A DNA stretch of 64,000 bases from Halobacteroides halobius DSM 5150 (lineage in GTDB: Bacteria > Bacillota > Halanaerobiia > Halobacteroidales > Halobacteroidaceae): positions 1,364,001 to 1,428,000 of the forward strand of contig NC_019978.1 of the NCBI RefSeq assembly GCF_000328625.1. The letters are read 5' to 3'. Each line of letters starts with the position of its first letter. The stretch's first letter is position 1. Positions 19,856 through 36,070 of this stretch are shown here, piece by piece. The notes beneath the pieces are model-generated. The model searched no databases. It saw only the letters and a program-made list of their open reading frames with translations, and was not told the origin of the DNA. A program made the position numbers and the translations under genes.

Positions 19856-21130
19856 TTATGCGGTAATTTCTTTTGTATCTTCTATTGTTACTTCATCTCC
19901 TTCGACTTCTTTTCCGAATATATTAATAGCTATATAGCAAGCAATCATACCTAATAGCAATAATGGAAATACTACCCAGTAAGGTAGTCCAAATCCAGCT
20001 GGAATAAAGCCAAAGACAATAGAAATGATTCCTACTATAAGCGCATAAGGGATTTGTGTATTAACATGATCAATATGGTCGGCAGCTGAAGCTGTAGAAG
20101 ACATAATTGTAGTATCAGATATTGGACTACAGTGGTCTCCTAAAACACAACCAGTCAATACTGCTCCAATTGTTGGTAACATAGGTGCCCCAAATTGATA
20201 CGCCATTGGAATTGCTAAAGGCATAATAATTGCGTTAGTTCCCCAAGAAGTACCTGTAGCAAAAGCAATTATGCCCGGAATAACAAACATCATTGTTGGA
20301 AGTAAAAATGGTGGAATAATATCCTTAGTTAAAGCTACAATATAATTAGCTGTTCCTAGCTTTTCAATTACTGTTCCTAAGGACCAAGCTAGAATAAGAA
20401 TACCACAGGCTACAGCTAATGCTTTAGCTCCATCAATCCAACCTTCCATAATTTCTTCTACTTCTAAATTCCCTTTAAATAGTCCTAATATTCCTGCAAC
20501 TATTGTACCACTAAACGAAGCCCATAGAAGAACTACACTAGAATCAGCATTTCCAAATGCTTCTCTAAGTCCCACATCGGCTGCTAATCCACCACCATTA
20601 TACCATAAACCAACTAAAGAAACTATAATAACTGTAATAATAGGTAAAAAAGCATCATACCATTTCATACTATTATTTTCTTTATAATTCATCTCTGTTA
20701 GTTCTTCAGAAGCCATTGGTGTGGCCCCATCTGCTAATACCTTTCCAGTTTTTCTAGCCCTTTGCTCTGCTTGATGCATAGGACCTATATCTTTGCCAGT
20801 CCAAATAACTACTAAAATCATAAATAAAGCTAATATACTGTAAAATCGATACGGAATTGTTTTAAGGAAAACAGAATAAACATTTTGCTCAATGCCTAAC
20901 TTAGTAAAAGCATCCTGAATTAATCCCATTTCATAACCAACCCAAGTTGAAATAAATGCCATACTAGTTACAGGTGCGGCTGTACAATCAACAATATAAG
21001 ATAACTTTTCTCGGGATACCTTTAACTTATCTGTAATCGACCGCATTGTAGTTCCTACAATCAAACTATTAGCATAATCATCAAAGAAGATTAATACACC
21101 CATTATCCATGTAGCTAACTGTGCTTTTTT
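19856..21130 (-). pseudogene. NhaC-family Na+/H+ antiporter-type transporter, 5'-truncated
   Basis: The C-terminal three quarters of an NhaC-family transporter are intact. Recognisable stretches are IFFDDYANSLIVGTTMRS, SREKLSYIVDCTAAPVTSMA and ATGTSWGTNAIIMPLAIPM, then VLGDHCSPISDTTIMSS. About 130-150 N-terminal residues normal for the family are absent. Homology continues upstream of the first ATG (21103) through KAQLATWIMG, then stops at about 21126 where sequence matching a lysine riboswitch begins. No ribosome site precedes 21103. I read this as a deletion that fused the riboswitch to the middle of the gene. A shortened functional protein or an assembly error are the alternatives. NhaC-type genes under lysine riboswitches are thought to move lysine. 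Confidence 0.75.
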
Positions 21131-21240
21131 AACAGTTTTATACCTGTTAAGTATAAACCCAACAACAAATATTTTAATTTGTTGTTTCGGCAGTTAACCC
21201 TTTCCTTAGCTAAGTACTTTTGATAACTGCTCCTCTACCT
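21124..21240 (-). promoter_or_regulatory. Lysine riboswitch (L-box) aptamer, 3' part missing
   Basis: On the minus strand the conserved blocks appear in order: AGGTAGAGGAGC, AAAAGTA, GGAAAGGG, CTGCCGAA and GTTGGG, then AAAACTGTTAA near the P5 start. Helices can be drawn: P2 GCAGTTA (21230-21224) with TAACTGC (21196-21190); P3 AACAACAAAT (21186-21177) with ATTTGTTGTT (21170-21161); P4 TTTATAC (21157-21151) with GTATAAA (21143-21137). The P5 3' strand, a normal P1 closure and the expression platform are missing where coding sequence begins. The P2 and P3 loops are also unusually short. Confidence 0.75.
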
Positions 21241-21259
21241 TATTATTTTGTTTATATTT

Positions 21260-27610: not shown

Positions 27611-29656
27611 TTACTCTATTAATTCTTTAAATTTATCCCTGCTAGTAACGGGGGCTAAACAACTAAAATCTTCACAAACATAAGCTGTTGTTTCTCCATT
27701 TTTTACTTGGTAATCTTTTATATAGGAAATTAATTCAATTAACTTGTCATTATTTTTAGTATCCTTAACTACAACTACACTAAAAGGATTAAATTTCTGT
27801 TGAAAGATATCAATCATCTCTGTTTCTTCCTTGGCTTTAACAATTATAACTTCTTTTCCAGGTTGCTGGTTAAATAAAACTGATATTAAAAAGGCTGAAT
27901 AAGCTCTTGGTGCCTTCCTAACTTGATTATAAAAATATTCAAATTGTTGCTGAGCCATATCGCTTAATTCTTGATTACTAACAAGTTTAGATAATTTTAA
28001 TAAATTTAAAGTAGCTATTGAATTTCCTGAAGGTAAAGCTCCATCTCTTACTCTCTTAGGTCTAGTAATTAATTTTTCTCCATCACTACCATATAAATAA
28101 AACCCACCATCTTCTTGGTCCCAGAAAAAATGGATTAAATCCTTATTTAAAATTAAAGCTCGCTCTAAATAATTGGCATTAAAATTAGCTTGATAAAGCT
28201 CTATTAACCCCCAAATATAAAAAGCATAATCATTAACATATCCTAAATAATCTGCTTCACCTTCTCTATATCTAGCTAATAATCTACCATCATCTTTTCT
28301 TATTAAATTATCCCAGATAAAATCAGCTGCTTCTTTAGCATAGTTTAGATATTCTTCTTTATCTAATATCTTTCCTGCTTTAGCAAAAGCTACAATCATT
28401 AATCCATTCCAAGCAGTTAAGATCTTATCATCCTTTGCTGGCCTAACTCTTTTCTCTCTAGCTAAAAATAACTTCTTTCTGGCTTTCCTAAATTCATGAT
28501 TAATCTTTAATTTATCACGTTCTGTCTTAATTAAATTTGGTATATTCTTTCCCGCAAAATTTCCTTCAGGAATAATATTATACGTCTGACAAAATTGGCT
28601 TCCTAACTTATCTCCTAAAGCTTCTTTTACTTCCCCTGGCTGCCATAAATAGTATTTACCTTCTTCTCCTTCTGAATCAGCATCCTCGGCAGAATAAAAA
28701 GCTCCTTTTGATGAAGTCATATCCCGGTTAATATAAGCTAAAATTTCTTCAGCTATCTTAGCATAAATCTCCTTTTCTAAAACTTGATAACCTTCCAGAT
28801 AGACAATAGTCAATAATGCATTATCATATAGCATCTTTTCAAAATGGGGTGCTAACCATTTTTCATCTGTTGCATAACGAGAAAAACCATATCCTATATG
28901 GTCATAAATCCCTCCCTGATACATACTATCTAAAGTTTTTTCTACTATAGATAAAACCTCTTGGTCATTATGAATTTTACCATATCTTAATAAAAACATT
29001 AAATTATGGGGACTAGGAAACTTAGGAGCAGAACCAAAACCACCATATTGGGCATCAAAGCTACTCTTTAAACTACTAACTGCCTCCTTAACTAATTTAT
29101 CTAAATCATTACTAGAAAAATTGGCAGCTTGCTTCTTCATATCTTGTTGCTTAATAGCTTGTACTAATTCTTCGCTAGACTCTAATATCTTTTCTTGTTG
29201 ATTAGACCACTTCTTTGTAATTTGATCTAGTATTTTTAATAAACCAGGACGCCCCCTTTTAGTTTGCTTAGGAAAGTAAGTACCAGCAAAAAAAGGTCTT
29301 TTATCAGGAGTCATAACTACTGTTAAGGGCCAACCTCCCCTACCAGTCATTGCTTGACAAACTGACATATAAATATCATCAATATCAGGCCTTTCTTCTC
29401 TATCCACTTTAATAGAAACAAAATTTTCATTTAAAACATTTGCTACCTCTTGGTCTGCAAAAGATTCTCTCTCCATTACATGGCACCAATGACAAGTAGA
29501 ATAACCTATTGATAAAAAAACTGGTTTATTCTCTTCTTGAGCTTTCTTAAATGCTTCCTCACTCCAAGGATACCAATTTACAGGATTATGTGCATGCTGT
29601 AATAAATAAGGACTCTTTTCATTTGCTAGTCTATTAACTGGTGTAGTTTCTACCAC
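27611..29656 (-). CDS. Thioredoxin-domain protein of the YyaL/DUF255 family
   Basis: A 681-residue cytosolic protein with an N-terminal thioredoxin-like domain ([20 protein letters not shown], then [14 protein letters not shown] with a CxxC pair) and a six-hairpin (alpha/alpha) glycosidase-like region holding [16 protein letters not shown] and [14 protein letters not shown]. The family, related to spermatogenesis-associated protein 20, is widespread but has no proven reaction. GTG start at 29656 after TAGGAGGTTAAATTC. Confidence 0.9.
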
Positions 29657-30138: not shown

Positions 30139-30504
30139 TTATTCTTTCTTTTGTTTTGTTATTACTTTCTTAATCTTCTTAGTTCCATCTTCTTCTACTT
30201 CTACTATTTCCTCTTCTACTTCTAGTACTTCTGAATTATCTTTCTTAGTTTTATAATCAGTAGCTTCTAAATCAGCCTGAGATGATTTCTGTAACTCTAA
30301 ACCTGTACTGAGAACAGAATCTACTTTTTCCTGTAATTGAATTAATTTATCTACTGTAATATCATCTAAATCCATAACTCTTTTCAAATCCTCTGCTTCT
30401 GCATCAATTAATTCAGCCAAAGCAGTTTTTTCTAAAGCACTTGCTTGAATTACATCTGTTAATACTTCCTCTTTATCTTTAGTTTCAATAGATACTTTTT
30501 TCAT
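30139..30504 (-). CDS. Small acidic hypothetical protein
   Basis: A 121-residue soluble protein with no signal peptide. The middle (ASALEKTALAELIDAEAEDLKRVMD) resembles short clostridial and bacillar proteins of the type ALEEAALAHILNAEGEKIQ that are sometimes associated with spores or phage, but I cannot name it. The C-terminal third is a strongly charged Glu/Lys tail. ATG is preceded by AAGGGGGAGTAAT. A repeated 15-bp box lies 67 bases upstream. Confidence 0.6.
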   Translation of the reverse strand: MKKVSIETKDKEEVLTDVIQASALEKTALAELIDAEAEDLKRVMDLDDITVDKLIQLQEKVDSVLSTGLELQKSSQADLEATDYKTKKDNSEVLEVEEEIVEVEEDGTKKIKKVITKQKKE

Positions 30505-30585: not shown

Positions 30586-30608
30586 CAAGTAACTAATAAA
30601 TTTAACCT

Positions 30609-30643
30609 AAAAAGAATTCTGCCTCCATAGCAGAACCCTTTTT
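30609..30643 (-). terminator. Intrinsic terminator of the ligase pair
   Basis: An imperfect stem with AAAAG and TTCTGC pairing GCAGAA and CTTTT, 10 bases past the ATP-grasp stop; the minus strand ends in TTCTTTTTAGG. Confidence 0.75.
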
Positions 30644-30652
30644 AAACCATAT

Positions 30653-31972
30653 TTATTTTCTAGAAACAATAAAATTAGGTTGTGTAACGCATCCTGTAGC
30701 ACTAGCGATCACATTCTCTTTTCCAGCCCGAGTATAAATCCCTTGTAAATCTTGATTATAACAAAAAAGCCCTAAGGTATGCTTATAAGATTCAAAATTT
30801 AACTCCTGATTAGTAAACGTAGCTAATTTTATTTCTGGGACTAGACAAAACTCTTGGGCCAAATATTTCTCAGCTTCAAGATTAGATAACTTGTTTTGCC
30901 ACTCTTTTGGGGCTACATCTTGCCCAATAGTAACTCCCTCAGATCCATAACTATCTTTTGGTTTTAAAACTAATTGATCTTTAGTTTGCTTAATATACTC
31001 TATTTGTTCTTCATCTGCCGGATCAACCACGACCGTATAAGGAATATATTTTTCAATAAATTCTTGCTCTTCTTTAGTTAAAAAAGATACTTTATCTTGA
31101 TCATGTAAAATAGCAAAAATAATCTTATTATGTATAACTTGCGATCTTATTGGGCCAACAACACAAACATCTTGATTCTTATAAGCTGCTATAAAGTCAC
31201 CAATTTCTTCGTAATGATCCATTAAATCAGTAGTCACAGCTCGCCGATAAATTAAATCAATCTTAAAATCATCTATGTACAGATCTCCTTTATCATAAGT
31301 TAAATCCCGAGGATCAACTATTTTGGCTTCTAAACCTTCTTCTTCTAGCTTTTCTTTAAAAAATTTAAATTCACTCTCCATCCCATAACTATTAAAATCC
31401 ATAATAGCTACATTAGGATCTTTTTTAGTAACACTAAATTGATTATAATTCCCTAATAAGGTATCAATCCAACTATCTAACAAGTCACAATACATTAGAT
31501 CATAGTCCTCTTTTAAATCATTAACTGCTTTAGATTCTAAAAAATATTGCTCTAAAGTATTAGTCTTTACCATTCCTGATGACCCGTCAGCATTCAATTC
31601 ACAAAATTTAATCTTATCTTTACCATAATAGAAGATATCACAACGTTCCATTGGTAAGTTACACTCATAACCAGGATCAACTAAAATAAGTTCCTCTAAC
31701 TTTTTAGAAAAATCAAAGTAAGAACGAAACTCTTCACTAGTTAAATACTCATCTACTACTTTATTTAAAATATTATTTAATTTATCGACTAAATGACTAA
31801 AGTTATCTAATTCTGTACTGTTAAAAAATAATGGATTATATAAAAAAGGAATTACTCTCCCATTATAATAGGCATAAGAATCTTCTAATTGCTTATATAA
31901 TCTTTGATAATCTTGATAATAGTCATCGCCTTTTTTCAAAATTTCCTGATACTTAATAGTAGCTTCTTGCAC
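30653..31972 (-). CDS. Circularly permuted ATP-grasp ligase (glutathionylspermidine synthase-like)
   Basis: A 439-residue protein resembling the permuted ATP-grasp/GspS C-terminal synthase group. It has the acidic motif KFCELNADGSSGM (about 122-134), the nucleotide-binding lysine region QLVLKPKDSYGSEGVTIG, and AEKYLAQEFC further on, ending near ASATGCVTQPNFIV. Enzymes of this fold join carboxylates to amines with ATP. It lies directly downstream of a glutamate-cysteine ligase-like gene (13-base gap), so it may complete a gamma-glutamyl-cysteine-based thiol or a related peptide. GTG start at 31972 after GAGGAGAATAA. Confidence 0.75.
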   Translation of the reverse strand: MQEATIKYQEILKKGDDYYQDYQRLYKQLEDSYAYYNGRVIPFLYNPLFFNSTELDNFSHLVDKLNNILNKVVDEYLTSEEFRSYFDFSKKLEELILVDPGYECNLPMERCDIFYYGKDKIKFCELNADGSSGMVKTNTLEQYFLESKAVNDLKEDYDLMYCDLLDSWIDTLLGNYNQFSVTKKDPNVAIMDFNSYGMESEFKFFKEKLEEEGLEAKIVDPRDLTYDKGDLYIDDFKIDLIYRRAVTTDLMDHYEEIGDFIAAYKNQDVCVVGPIRSQVIHNKIIFAILHDQDKVSFLTKEEQEFIEKYIPYTVVVDPADEEQIEYIKQTKDQLVLKPKDSYGSEGVTIGQDVAPKEWQNKLSNLEAEKYLAQEFCLVPEIKLATFTNQELNFESYKHTLGLFCYNQDLQGIYTRAGKENVIASATGCVTQPNFIVSRK

Positions 31973-31985
31973 TTATTCTCCTCCT

Positions 31986-33275
31986 CTAAAGTTTATAATT
32001 AAGAATACATGGTTTAATGGCTTCTTTTTTATTTTCTTGGCGTAGTCTTTCTTTTAGCCTACTTGCCGGTGTCTTTCTTTCTCTAACTAATTCTTCTAAA
32101 GGTTTTAAATACTCAAGTTCTACTTCTTTTAAACCTGCTTTAGCCCAGTTAATATACTTACTTGCTATCTCTAAAATATCATAATCACCTAATTTAGTCT
32201 TGACACCTTGTTTAATAATTGCCTCTTTAGCTTCTAGAACATCCTCTAATCTAAATAGCTTTGAAAAATTAACTGCTTTATCTAAACTTGCTTGATTATA
32301 AAATAATCCTTTCCAAAAAGATACTAGAGCAAAACTAAGTTCAGGTGGTAATGAATCAGCCATCCTAATCTCAATAAATTGCTTGGCCCGTACATCTGGA
32401 AAAACCATAGTCAAAATATGTTCTAAATCCTGTAAGCAAAAATCTCGCTGAGCAAAAACTTGTCTATTTGTCTGAGAGCCAGTAGCCTGATAACTCTTAT
32501 CTTGCTTAATTAATATCGACTCTTTTGACAAAATATATTCAGCATATTTCCTATAATCAAAATCTGAAGCAAAACTTTCTTGAACTACTCCTGTTCTAGT
32601 TGGATCAGTATGATTCCAAATCAAGGTTCTTAAAGCTTGTTTATCATAAATTTGTCCTTCAAAAATAGGTGCATTATCTAACAAAATACTCAATACTGGT
32701 GATAAAAAGTTAGCTACTCTAAATTTATCTATAAAATCCTGTTCACTCTCATAATCTAAAGCAATTTGAAAAGCTGCAGTTCCTTTCATCATATTATGAG
32801 CATATTGACCTTTTTCATTAAAATAATCAGACATTATTTTATACCTTTGTTTAGGATTCCAAGCAATTTGATTAATCTTACTAGCTGGTTGATAACCTAA
32901 ACTAATCAAATAGTAATTATACTCTTCTAAAATAGGTATTAAATCTTGTAAAAACTGGTCGTAAACCTCTTCTAATTCTTTAATTTCAGCGCAGGGATAA
33001 ATTCCTAATTCTACCTGCCCACCTGGTTCTAAAGTTATATCAGCTTGAGAAGAGGAAAGTTGAATTAAATTACCTTCTTCTTTTTTTCCTTGCCAACCTT
33101 TAGCTTGTAACTGATATAATAAATCTTCAATTCCATTCTGTTCTTGATATGTAATAGTTCTTAAACCATTTTTATCTACTACAAAATGTTCAATTTCAAC
33201 ACCTATTTTTTGTTCTTCTGTTTCACCAACTCTAAAATAACTTTCCAATTCATTTAATAATTCTCTATACTCCAT
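31986..33275 (-). CDS. Glutamate-cysteine ligase-like enzyme (GCS2 / plant-type)
   Basis: A 429-residue protein of the plant/proteobacterial GCS2 group (as in EgtA and plant GshA). Seen here are KIGVEIEHFVVD (metal and glutamate-binding Glu pair), PGGQVELGIYPC, TAAFQIALDYESEQDFIDKFRVAN and WNHTDPTRTG. The family condenses glutamate and cysteine with ATP. Together with the adjacent ATP-grasp gene and the divergent glyoxalase it suggests production of a thiol cofactor. Other gamma-glutamyl acceptors cannot be excluded. ATG follows TTGAGGTGAAAAGGA. Confidence 0.82.
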   Translation of the reverse strand: MEYRELLNELESYFRVGETEEQKIGVEIEHFVVDKNGLRTITYQEQNGIEDLLYQLQAKGWQGKKEEGNLIQLSSSQADITLEPGGQVELGIYPCAEIKELEEVYDQFLQDLIPILEEYNYYLISLGYQPASKINQIAWNPKQRYKIMSDYFNEKGQYAHNMMKGTAAFQIALDYESEQDFIDKFRVANFLSPVLSILLDNAPIFEGQIYDKQALRTLIWNHTDPTRTGVVQESFASDFDYRKYAEYILSKESILIKQDKSYQATGSQTNRQVFAQRDFCLQDLEHILTMVFPDVRAKQFIEIRMADSLPPELSFALVSFWKGLFYNQASLDKAVNFSKLFRLEDVLEAKEAIIKQGVKTKLGDYDILEIASKYINWAKAGLKEVELEYLKPLEELVRERKTPASRLKERLRQENKKEAIKPCILNYKL

Positions 33276-33402
33276 TCCTTTTCACCTCAACTTTTAAATC
33301 AATAATATACCATATTTTAGTCTTGATAACTATTTTTATTATATCATTAGACTAGTTAATAATAAAGGATATTATTTAGACATCTAATTATATATCTTAT
33401 TA

Positions 33403-33431
33403 TTGACAATTAGATATTTTAATACTACAAT
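33403..33431 (+). promoter_or_regulatory. Sigma-A promoter of the glyoxalase gene
   Basis: TTGACA (33403-33408), 17-bp spacer, TACAAT (33426-33431), 35 bases before the ATG. Confidence 0.82.
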
Positions 33432-33466
33432 ATACAATACATACTACTAAGGAGGAGATTTAATCT

Positions 33467-33856
33467 ATGACACAAGAATACAATGTAGTGCATGCTTGTA
33501 TTAGAGTTCTTGATTTAGAAAAATCAATTAAATTTTACCAAACAGCATTAAACTTTGAAGTAGCAAGAAAAAGAGACTTCCCAGAAGCTGAATTTACACT
33601 TGTCTATCTTAAAAGTAAAACAAGCAATTTCGAACTAGAACTTACTTATAACTATGACCGTAAAGAACCTTATACCATTGGCAACGGCTTTAGTCATCTT
33701 GCTGTAACTGTGGAAGATTTAGAAGCTTCATACCACAAACATCAAGAACTTGGTTATCAAGTAAGTGAGCTAAAAAGTTTAGATAAAGAAGCAAGTGGTG
33801 GCTACTATTTCTTAACTGACCCTGATGGTTACAGGACTGAAGTCATACAAAAATAA
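33467..33856 (+). CDS. gloA: Glyoxalase I-like VOC protein (lactoylglutathione lyase)
   Basis: A 129-residue VOC-fold metalloenzyme close to E. coli-type GloA. The four metal ligands are present: His9, Glu58 (in ELELTYN), His77 (GFSHLAV) and Glu125 (DPDGYRTEVI). GloA isomerises the hemithioacetal of methylglyoxal and a thiol. Its placement across from two gamma-glutamyl ligase-type genes suggests that they supply the thiol. The start follows AAGGAGGAGATTTAATCT. Confidence 0.87.
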   Translation: MTQEYNVVHACIRVLDLEKSIKFYQTALNFEVARKRDFPEAEFTLVYLKSKTSNFELELTYNYDRKEPYTIGNGFSHLAVTVEDLEASYHKHQELGYQVSELKSLDKEASGGYYFLTDPDGYRTEVIQK

Positions 33857-35725: not shown

Positions 35726-36070
35726 ATGAAGATATACAAAAAGTGCACTAATATATGTATAAAATGCTTATCTGAATGTGAGGCATCTTTAACTTTCTCA
35801 CTGCAAGAATCTAAAAAAGATAACCAGCTAGATTGTATTAATCTCTTATTAGATTGTATTGATATATGTTCTATAACAATTAGATATCTCTTATACAATA
35901 GCAGATTTATAAGAGATATCTGCTATAAATGTGCTATTATTTGCAACAATTGTGCGAAAGTATGTGCTAAATCATCCAATAAACATTATCAATCTTGTGT
36001 AGAGATTTGCCATAAGTGTGCTAAAAAATGCAAAAAGATAGCAAGCTTTTCCTTAAATCAACTAGCTTAA
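35726..36070 (+). CDS. Cys-rich four-helix bundle protein (DUF326 / copper storage type)
   Basis: A 114-residue protein with 16 cysteines, mostly spaced CxxxC or CxxC along predicted helices (C7, C11, C14, C18; then LDCINLLLDCIDIC; CYKCAIICNNCAKVC; CVEICHKCAKKC). This is the DUF326/Csp pattern, in which a four-helix bundle lined with cysteines binds Cu(I). Histidines usual in relatives are partly replaced. There is no signal peptide, so storage or scavenging would be cytosolic. The start follows AACAAGGAGTCTTAAC. Confidence 0.78.
   Translation: MKIYKKCTNICIKCLSECEASLTFSLQESKKDNQLDCINLLLDCIDICSITIRYLLYNSRFIRDICYKCAIICNNCAKVCAKSSNKHYQSCVEICHKCAKKCKKIASFSLNQLA

Follow-up and report, generated by a model that had tools for sequence, protein, structure and literature searches.

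The single-contig genome of Halobacteroides halobius DSM 5150 (2,649,255 bases, 99.99% complete) carries, within the stretch of 64,000 nucleotides analysed here (positions 1364001-1428000; hereafter the window), a two-gene operon in which a gene of the GCS2 family of glutamate-cysteine ligases (GCL) lies 13 bp upstream of a gene for a circularly permuted ATP-grasp ligase; gloA, the gene for glyoxalase I, diverges from this operon (Table 1). A strong ribosome-binding sequence precedes the GTG start of the second gene. This is the arrangement described in the first-pass annotation of this DNA, and all three reading frames are found where it had placed them. The gene pair looks like an unrecognised route to glutathione, or to a close analogue, in bacteria believed to be without it.

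Table 1. Genes and signals at the GCS2/ATP-grasp locus, in window coordinates.
Feature	Position	Strand	Remarks
GCS2-family glutamate-cysteine ligase gene	31986..33275	-	429 residues; first in operon; PF04107 106.2 bits
Circularly permuted ATP-grasp ligase gene	30653..31972	-	439 residues; second in operon; GTG start; PF03738 43.3 bits
gloA, glyoxalase I (lactoylglutathione lyase)	33467..33856	+	129 residues; divergent from operon; NF050074 185.1 bits
Terminator-like hairpin	30603..30649	-	just 3' of the ATP-grasp gene, at the end of the two-gene unit; pattern scan, consensus match only
Divergent intergenic region, gloA / GCS2 operon	33276..33466	.	promoter-like sites both ways
gloA promoter-like site TTGACA-17-TACAAT	33403-33431	+	consensus match 11/12
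Weak promoter-like site for GCS2/ATP-grasp operon	33329-33302	-	pattern scan
Lysine riboswitch aptamer	21104-21245	-	84 bits; only RNA element in the window, far from the pair

Sequence and modelled fold both support the first enzyme as a glutamate-cysteine ligase, for which the formation of gamma-Glu-Cys is predicted. The protein scores well above the PF04107 gathering cut-off of 21 bits, and its closest sequences in the PDB are those of plant GCL (6gmo/2gwc; phmmer E 1.6e-47, 30% identity). The structure model, built from the window protein and 36 named relatives (the named relatives being, throughout, the best 80 of the 419 stretches found to encode relatives when the genomes of 84,980 species were scanned), has a predicted local distance difference test score (pLDDT) of 95.4 and superimposes on a plant GCL structure that contains a transition-state analogue (2gwc) at Z 53.3 and 1.8 Å over 420 residues; YbdK is the next family, at Z 36, and E. 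coli GshA reaches Z about 20. The active-site motif blocks of the plant enzyme are likewise present in the phmmer alignment, and 33 columns are invariant across the 37 aligned GCS2 sequences. From the plant and proteobacterial GCLs of TIGR01436 the protein differs in sequence, in occurring in anaerobes, in having a different synthetase partner, and in scoring 263.7 bits against that equivalog's curated cut-off of 463.15; because of this shortfall it is not filed in the equivalog but is only its nearest relative, so that the earlier label 'plant-type' holds as a statement of kinship and not of family membership. The shortfall, together with the existence of GCS2-type enzymes such as YbdK that have no known GCL role in vivo, could be taken to mean that the enzyme uses an amine other than cysteine, the pair making a gamma-glutamyl compound that is not a thiol; this is very improbable, given that plant GCL leads the structural matches by far, that GloA co-occurs with the pair, and that a bona fide GshA replaces GCS2 in one genome (Formimonas, below).

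The second protein exceeds the 29.3-bit cut-off of PF03738 (GSP_synth) and also matches PF14403, at 40.6 bits; at E <= 0.1 its Pfam matches are to ATP-grasp families only, and include neither the eukaryotic glutathione synthetase family (GSS) nor, anywhere in the chain, the N-terminal amidase of glutathionylspermidine synthase (GspS). In the PDB, a single-sequence search at E <= 0.001 returns only Cp1B, the fungal ATP-grasp enzyme of E-64 synthesis (9cjn), and a search with the family profile returns Cp1B at E 9e-7 and adds YgiC at E 6e-4. Alignment of the family by hhalign gives E 2.2e-4 for GspS and 2.9e-5 for YgiC; its R-x-D, E-x-N-x-D, NK, KP and C-terminal R blocks fall on those of E. coli GspS. 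The structure model (pLDDT 93.5), for which 52 of the named relatives were used together with the window protein, has matches spanning 355-416 residues at Z about 27.6-31.6, namely YgiC at 31.6 (YgiC/YjfC about 31), GspS at 29.8, soybean homoglutathione synthetase at 29.1 over 413 residues (3kal), human glutathione synthetase at 28.3 over 416 (2hgs), and Cp1B at 27.6. The likeness to the eukaryotic glutathione and homoglutathione synthetases (2hgs, 1m0w, 3kal, 5oes) extends over the whole protein, at Z 27.6-29.1 over 398-416 residues, although identity is only 12-15%; E. coli GshB (1gsa), in contrast, gives only Z 9.6 over 214 residues. The ligase thus has the fold of the eukaryotic synthetases and of GspS, not that of bacterial GshB. 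The first-pass description of a glutathionylspermidine synthase-like ATP-grasp enzyme agrees with both family and fold, but its wording 'non-homologous route' was too strong, as the ligase is not orthologous to GshB yet has the fold of eukaryotic glutathione synthetase.

R110, D112, E125, N127, D129, R243, R244, K283, K337, P338, and R415 are invariant in all 53 aligned ATP-grasp sequences. The same R-x-D and E-x-N pattern is formed in Cp1B by R139, D141, E163, and N165, which matter for activity according to the alanine substitutions described for that enzyme (PMC12568646); Cp1B differs in its substrates, given there as epoxysuccinate and hydrophobic amino acids, and in belonging to fungal secondary metabolism. 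In potato glutathione synthetase, the cysteine of gamma-Glu-Cys is described as being held through the side chain of an arginine and the backbones of two serines (PMC5919673). By its likeness to the eukaryotic glutathione synthetases, the ligase would be expected to activate the carboxylate of gamma-Glu-Cys.

Across genomes the two genes are almost always linked. In a draw of 149 genomes of the phylum (ATP-grasp threshold E <= 1e-5) there are 12 ATP-grasp matches. The 11 strong ones have, without exception, GCS2 as the gene immediately upstream; the remaining one is an 878-residue protein with tandem GSP_synth-type stretches (L013:943-3579, genome G090), which belongs to another permuted ATP-grasp family and has no role assigned. 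In a second draw, of 398 genomes including the window (E <= 1e-40), GCS2 is adjacent in 25 of the ATP-grasp-positive genomes and fused in one, so that the pairing pointed out by the first-pass annotation is found in 26 out of 26. Among the named relatives, GCS2 is adjacent in 68 and fused in one, three are truncated at a contig end (L036, L049, L077), and eight stand alone. A GCS2 of the same subfamily lies elsewhere in eight of these eleven genomes (six of the eight stand-alone cases, plus L049 and L077); the L036 genome has a distant GCS2 only, and a GCS2 search of the L025 and L046 genomes, the latter a 1.3-Mb metagenome bin, finds none. The fused proteins L079 (869 residues) and L202 (886 residues) both have GCS2 first and ATP-grasp second. 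They stand apart in the ATP-grasp tree, but two independent fusions are not claimed, because a single clade is not rejected by the approximately unbiased (AU) test (p 0.234) and the L202 branch is long.

The nearest relatives in the ATP-grasp tree are those of other Halobacteroidaceae (Orenia, Halanaerobacter, Natroniella, Halonatronum), and by record titles the best 80 of the 419 come from Bacillota, Cloacimonadota, Bipolaricaulota, Mcinerneyibacterium, and a Haloplasmataceae bin, some of the records being metagenome bins that may hold stray contigs. Between the distance matrices of the GCS2 and ATP-grasp proteins the correlation is r 0.83 for 67 pairs (the window, 64 named relatives, and the two split fusions), a value reached in none of 2000 permutations; this points to joint inheritance of the pair, not to function. 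Indeed, a chance neighbourhood or mere co-inheritance of two genes without a common pathway would by itself give correlated distances, but such an explanation is barely credible: the two genes remain neighbours in several phyla and at identities as low as 28-33%, fusions occur, an unlinked GCS2 gene is found elsewhere in eight of the eleven genomes, GshA can stand in for GCS2, and in three genomes without the ATP-grasp gene the relatives of this GCS2 have lost most of its invariant residues. Nor does the remainder of the neighbourhood behave in this way: all-against-all clustering of 1222 flanking open reading frames from the 80 loci places gloA in six loci and two other clusters in 12 and 10, with no gene near the pair in more than 12 of the 80, and finds no conserved third partner besides gloA. 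The pair is thus supported as a real and widely conserved functional unit.

These partnerless relatives come from the 149-genome draw, in which PF04107 occurs in 19 genomes, the 11 with the pair and eight others. Three of these eight (G006, G053, G092) encode relatives of the GCS2 subfamily, at 256-266 bits, without the ATP-grasp ligase, and in these most of the 21 invariant positions examined are no longer conserved; judged from their sequences, they are probable GCS2 pseudoenzymes, and an intact-looking GCS2 active site apparently accompanies the ATP-grasp partner. All three are kept as open frames of 355-417 residues (L170:4261-5328, L171:2830-4062, and L172:4385-5638, respectively).

The best evidence for the intermediate comes from L025, a complete chromosome of Candidatus Formimonas warabiya. 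Its ATP-grasp sequence nests among Alkaliphilus-type sequences in the tree, and 1.7 kb from the ATP-grasp gene lies an E. coli-type GshA of 513 residues (TIGR01434 405 bits, cut-off 393.3). Because this enzyme, differently built but with the same known product, replaces GCS2, gamma-Glu-Cys is strongly indicated as the shared intermediate. That the ATP-grasp ligase adds a residue to it is likewise a strong inference. The GshA gene (L025:13002-14543) is convergent with the ATP-grasp gene and stands directly before two ABC-transporter-like genes.

The usual genes for the second step are missing. Standard gshB is ruled out in the source genome, as the first-pass annotation had stated: TIGR01380 (cut-off 299 bits) has no match in the complete 2.65-Mb sequence, and PF02955 finds only a 24-bit stretch inside an 877-residue open frame. 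TIGR01380 scores above its cut-off in none of 46 pair genomes (the source genome and 45 of the 80 named ones, picked for longer contigs and isolates), against 3 of 14 control genomes. This displacement is not perfectly exclusive, because the L081 genome (Cloacimonadota) has a full-length gshB-like gene (G197:C24:2942-3928, locus L162) of 207 bits, under the cut-off; the two routes may coexist there. GshF (GshAB) consists of an E. coli-type GshA joined to an ATP-grasp of another family; it shares the two-step logic of the pair, and L079 and L202 are likewise fused GCL-synthetase proteins, but E. coli-type GshA (PF04262) is not found in the source genome, so that the GshA part of GshF is absent there and both GshF and GshA can be set aside. 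PF04262 is absent from 10 of the 11 genomes tested, the eleventh being Formimonas.

The GloA protein clears the cut-offs of NF050074 (165 bits) and of the Glyoxalase family PF00903 (71.8 bits, cut-off 20.6), and its H9, E58, H77, and E125 align with H5, E56, H74, and E122 of E. coli GloA, which we take to be the metal ligands; the four metal ligands noted in the first-pass annotation are thus in place. The residues aligned with E. coli R9 and N60, presumably involved in glutathione binding, are kept as well. In the 398-genome draw, NF050074 is above cut-off in 17 genomes; 11 of these belong to the 26 pair genomes and 6 to the 372 that lack the pair (Fisher p 9e-11); counted by taxonomic family, the figures are 7 of 17 and 4 of 124 (p 2.6e-5). 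It is also above cut-off in 26 of the 46 chosen pair genomes, and gloA adjoins the pair, divergently, in Halobacteroidaceae and in Desulforamulus/Desulfotomaculum. Two related genomes have GloA-profile matches with one in-frame TGA (G056:C1:2534310-2534393, G095:C1:2356150-2356233), possibly a VOC-fold selenoprotein or a broken gene.

These considerations suggest that the product of the pair is very probably a thiol of the form gamma-Glu-Cys-X, and they favour a two-step pathway of the glutathione type with glycine as the likely last residue. The GCS2 enzyme would join the gamma-carboxyl group of glutamate to cysteine in an ATP-dependent reaction; the ATP-grasp enzyme would phosphorylate the cysteine carboxylate of gamma-Glu-Cys; and the activated gamma-Glu-Cys would be coupled to an amine, most likely glycine, yielding glutathione. 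A plant- or eukaryote-like pairing, of a plant-type GCL with a synthetase of eukaryotic fold, would in this way replace gshA/gshB or gshF in Halobacteroidaceae, Alkaliphilus/Tissierella-type clostridia, Desulforamulus, and others, with GloA as one consumer of the thiol. That X is glycine is the acceptor prediction we prefer, with reservations: known pathways use glycine more often than any other acceptor, the residues aligned with R9 and N60 are retained in the adjacent GloA, and there is no positive pointer to any other amine.

The acceptor cannot, however, be read off the structure, as, among the structural neighbours listed, GspS, YgiC, GSS, and Cp1B differ by only a few units of Z. A polyamine was among the last residues considered in the first-pass annotation, and a ligase that coupled gamma-Glu-Cys to spermidine or another polyamine, giving a thiol akin to trypanothione or glutathionylspermidine, would fit the nearest folds (YgiC/YjfC and GspS), the Pfam family GSP_synth, the hhalign matches, and the five conserved blocks shared with E. 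coli GspS. It is nevertheless improbable. E. coli gss carries the annotation of a fused amidase/synthetase and YgiC that of a peptide-spermidine ligase; the ligase described here has no amidase domain and is tied to a GCL gene, and no spermidine synthase (PF01564, E <= 1e-10) is found in the complete source genome or in 14 others of the 46 pair genomes, against 31 that have it. A spermidine acceptor is disfavoured because the pair is present regardless of this enzyme, the search covering PF01564 and not the carboxyspermidine route or import. A more serious contender, though still an unlikely one, is a non-glycine amino acid or small amine (beta-alanine, serine, alanine, or a diamine), which would give these bacteria an undescribed thiol. 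Against the preference for glycine that the adjacent GloA and the known pathways suggest, it can be held that the ATP-grasp sequence is far from those of characterised glutathione synthetases, with only Cp1B and YgiC reaching E <= 0.001 in the PDB; that enzymes of this fold differ mainly in their acceptor, which is described as beta-alanine for homoglutathione synthetase (PMC5919673) and as hydrophobic amino acids for Cp1B (PMC12568646); and that unidentified thiols are reported in clostridia (PMC6336425).

Several further observations weigh against the preferred reading. The fold of the ligase is common to enzymes whose acceptors range from glycine and beta-alanine to polyamines and hydrophobic amino acids; its best Z is to YgiC/YjfC and not to a glutathione synthetase, within the narrow spread of Z already noted; and the GCS2 protein falls short of TIGR01436. 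In GloA, the loop around residues 107-114 does not conserve the aligned lysine of E. coli GloA that presumably, by analogy with human GLO1, binds the glycine carboxylate, so that the thiol could differ from glutathione; as the loop varies in length among the aligned enzymes, it is weighed neither for nor against glycine. Six GloA-positive genomes of the 398-genome draw have no pair (G081, G255, G395, G026, G297, G345), and in a few genomes GloA may be fed from another thiol; conversely, 15 of the 26 pair genomes have no NF050074 GloA, so that the thiol must have other uses. The association between GloA and the pair is therefore real but neither necessary nor exclusive. Finally, the surveys of anaerobes, in species other than the source, are described as having found no glutathione (PMC6336425). 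The first-pass interpretation as a whole is partly supported, by the conserved pair, a first enzyme of GCL type, the GSS/GspS fold, the lack of gshB, and the co-occurrence with GloA; neither the non-homology of the route nor, in all probability, the polyamine stands.

The signals around the genes are modest. The pattern scan finds 5 terminator-like hairpins in the region where 1.1 are expected, one of them closing the operon, and 32 promoter-like sites against 22.9 in shuffles; because this count barely exceeds that of the shuffles, only the 11-of-12 site of gloA is notable. An RNA-element scan of the pair in seven related loci gives no match above threshold. Downstream of the operon lies a gene for a charged protein of 121 residues with no Pfam or NCBIfam match (window 30139-30504, minus strand) and, still near the presumed thiol genes, one for a 681-residue Thioredox_DsbH (DUF255) protein with a thioredoxin-like domain (27611-29656, minus strand); on the other side, a cysteine-rich protein of 114 residues carries a DUF326 repeat (35726-36070, plus strand).

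According to PMC6282198, gshA-gshB genes occur only in one actinobacterium, Cyanobacteria, Proteobacteria, and eukaryotes, with many prokaryotes left without an identified thiol; the same source and PMC6336425 report no gshA-gshB pathway in Firmicutes and novel thiols in anaerobes, the latter in two clostridia. A review of Archaea mentions GshF and separate GshF-like halves in methanogens (PMC7278568), and another restates the opinion that the enzyme of the second step was recruited from the ATP-grasp superfamily in eukaryotes and in most bacteria (PMC10295655); the family described here would be one more such recruitment. Searches of open-licence PubMed Central, as distinct from subscription papers, list no description of the GCS2/ATP-grasp pair and give nothing relevant on glutathione in Halobacteroides halobius. 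As far as that literature shows, the pair would amount to thiol synthesis of the glutathione type in a new, non-orthologous variant. More tentatively, and with considerable doubt, it may be a further, independently recruited ATP-grasp thiol route whose undescribed gamma-Glu-Cys-X product takes the place of glutathione in many anaerobic Bacillota, Cloacimonadota, and Bipolaricaulota.

The pair reaches 26 of the 398 genomes of the phylum, and other phyla besides. Should its product be glutathione, gene-based surveys for gshB or GshF overlook the pair; should it be another gamma-Glu-Cys thiol, the two genes offer genetic access to an unknown cofactor. In both cases, the thiol used by these anaerobes becomes directly testable.

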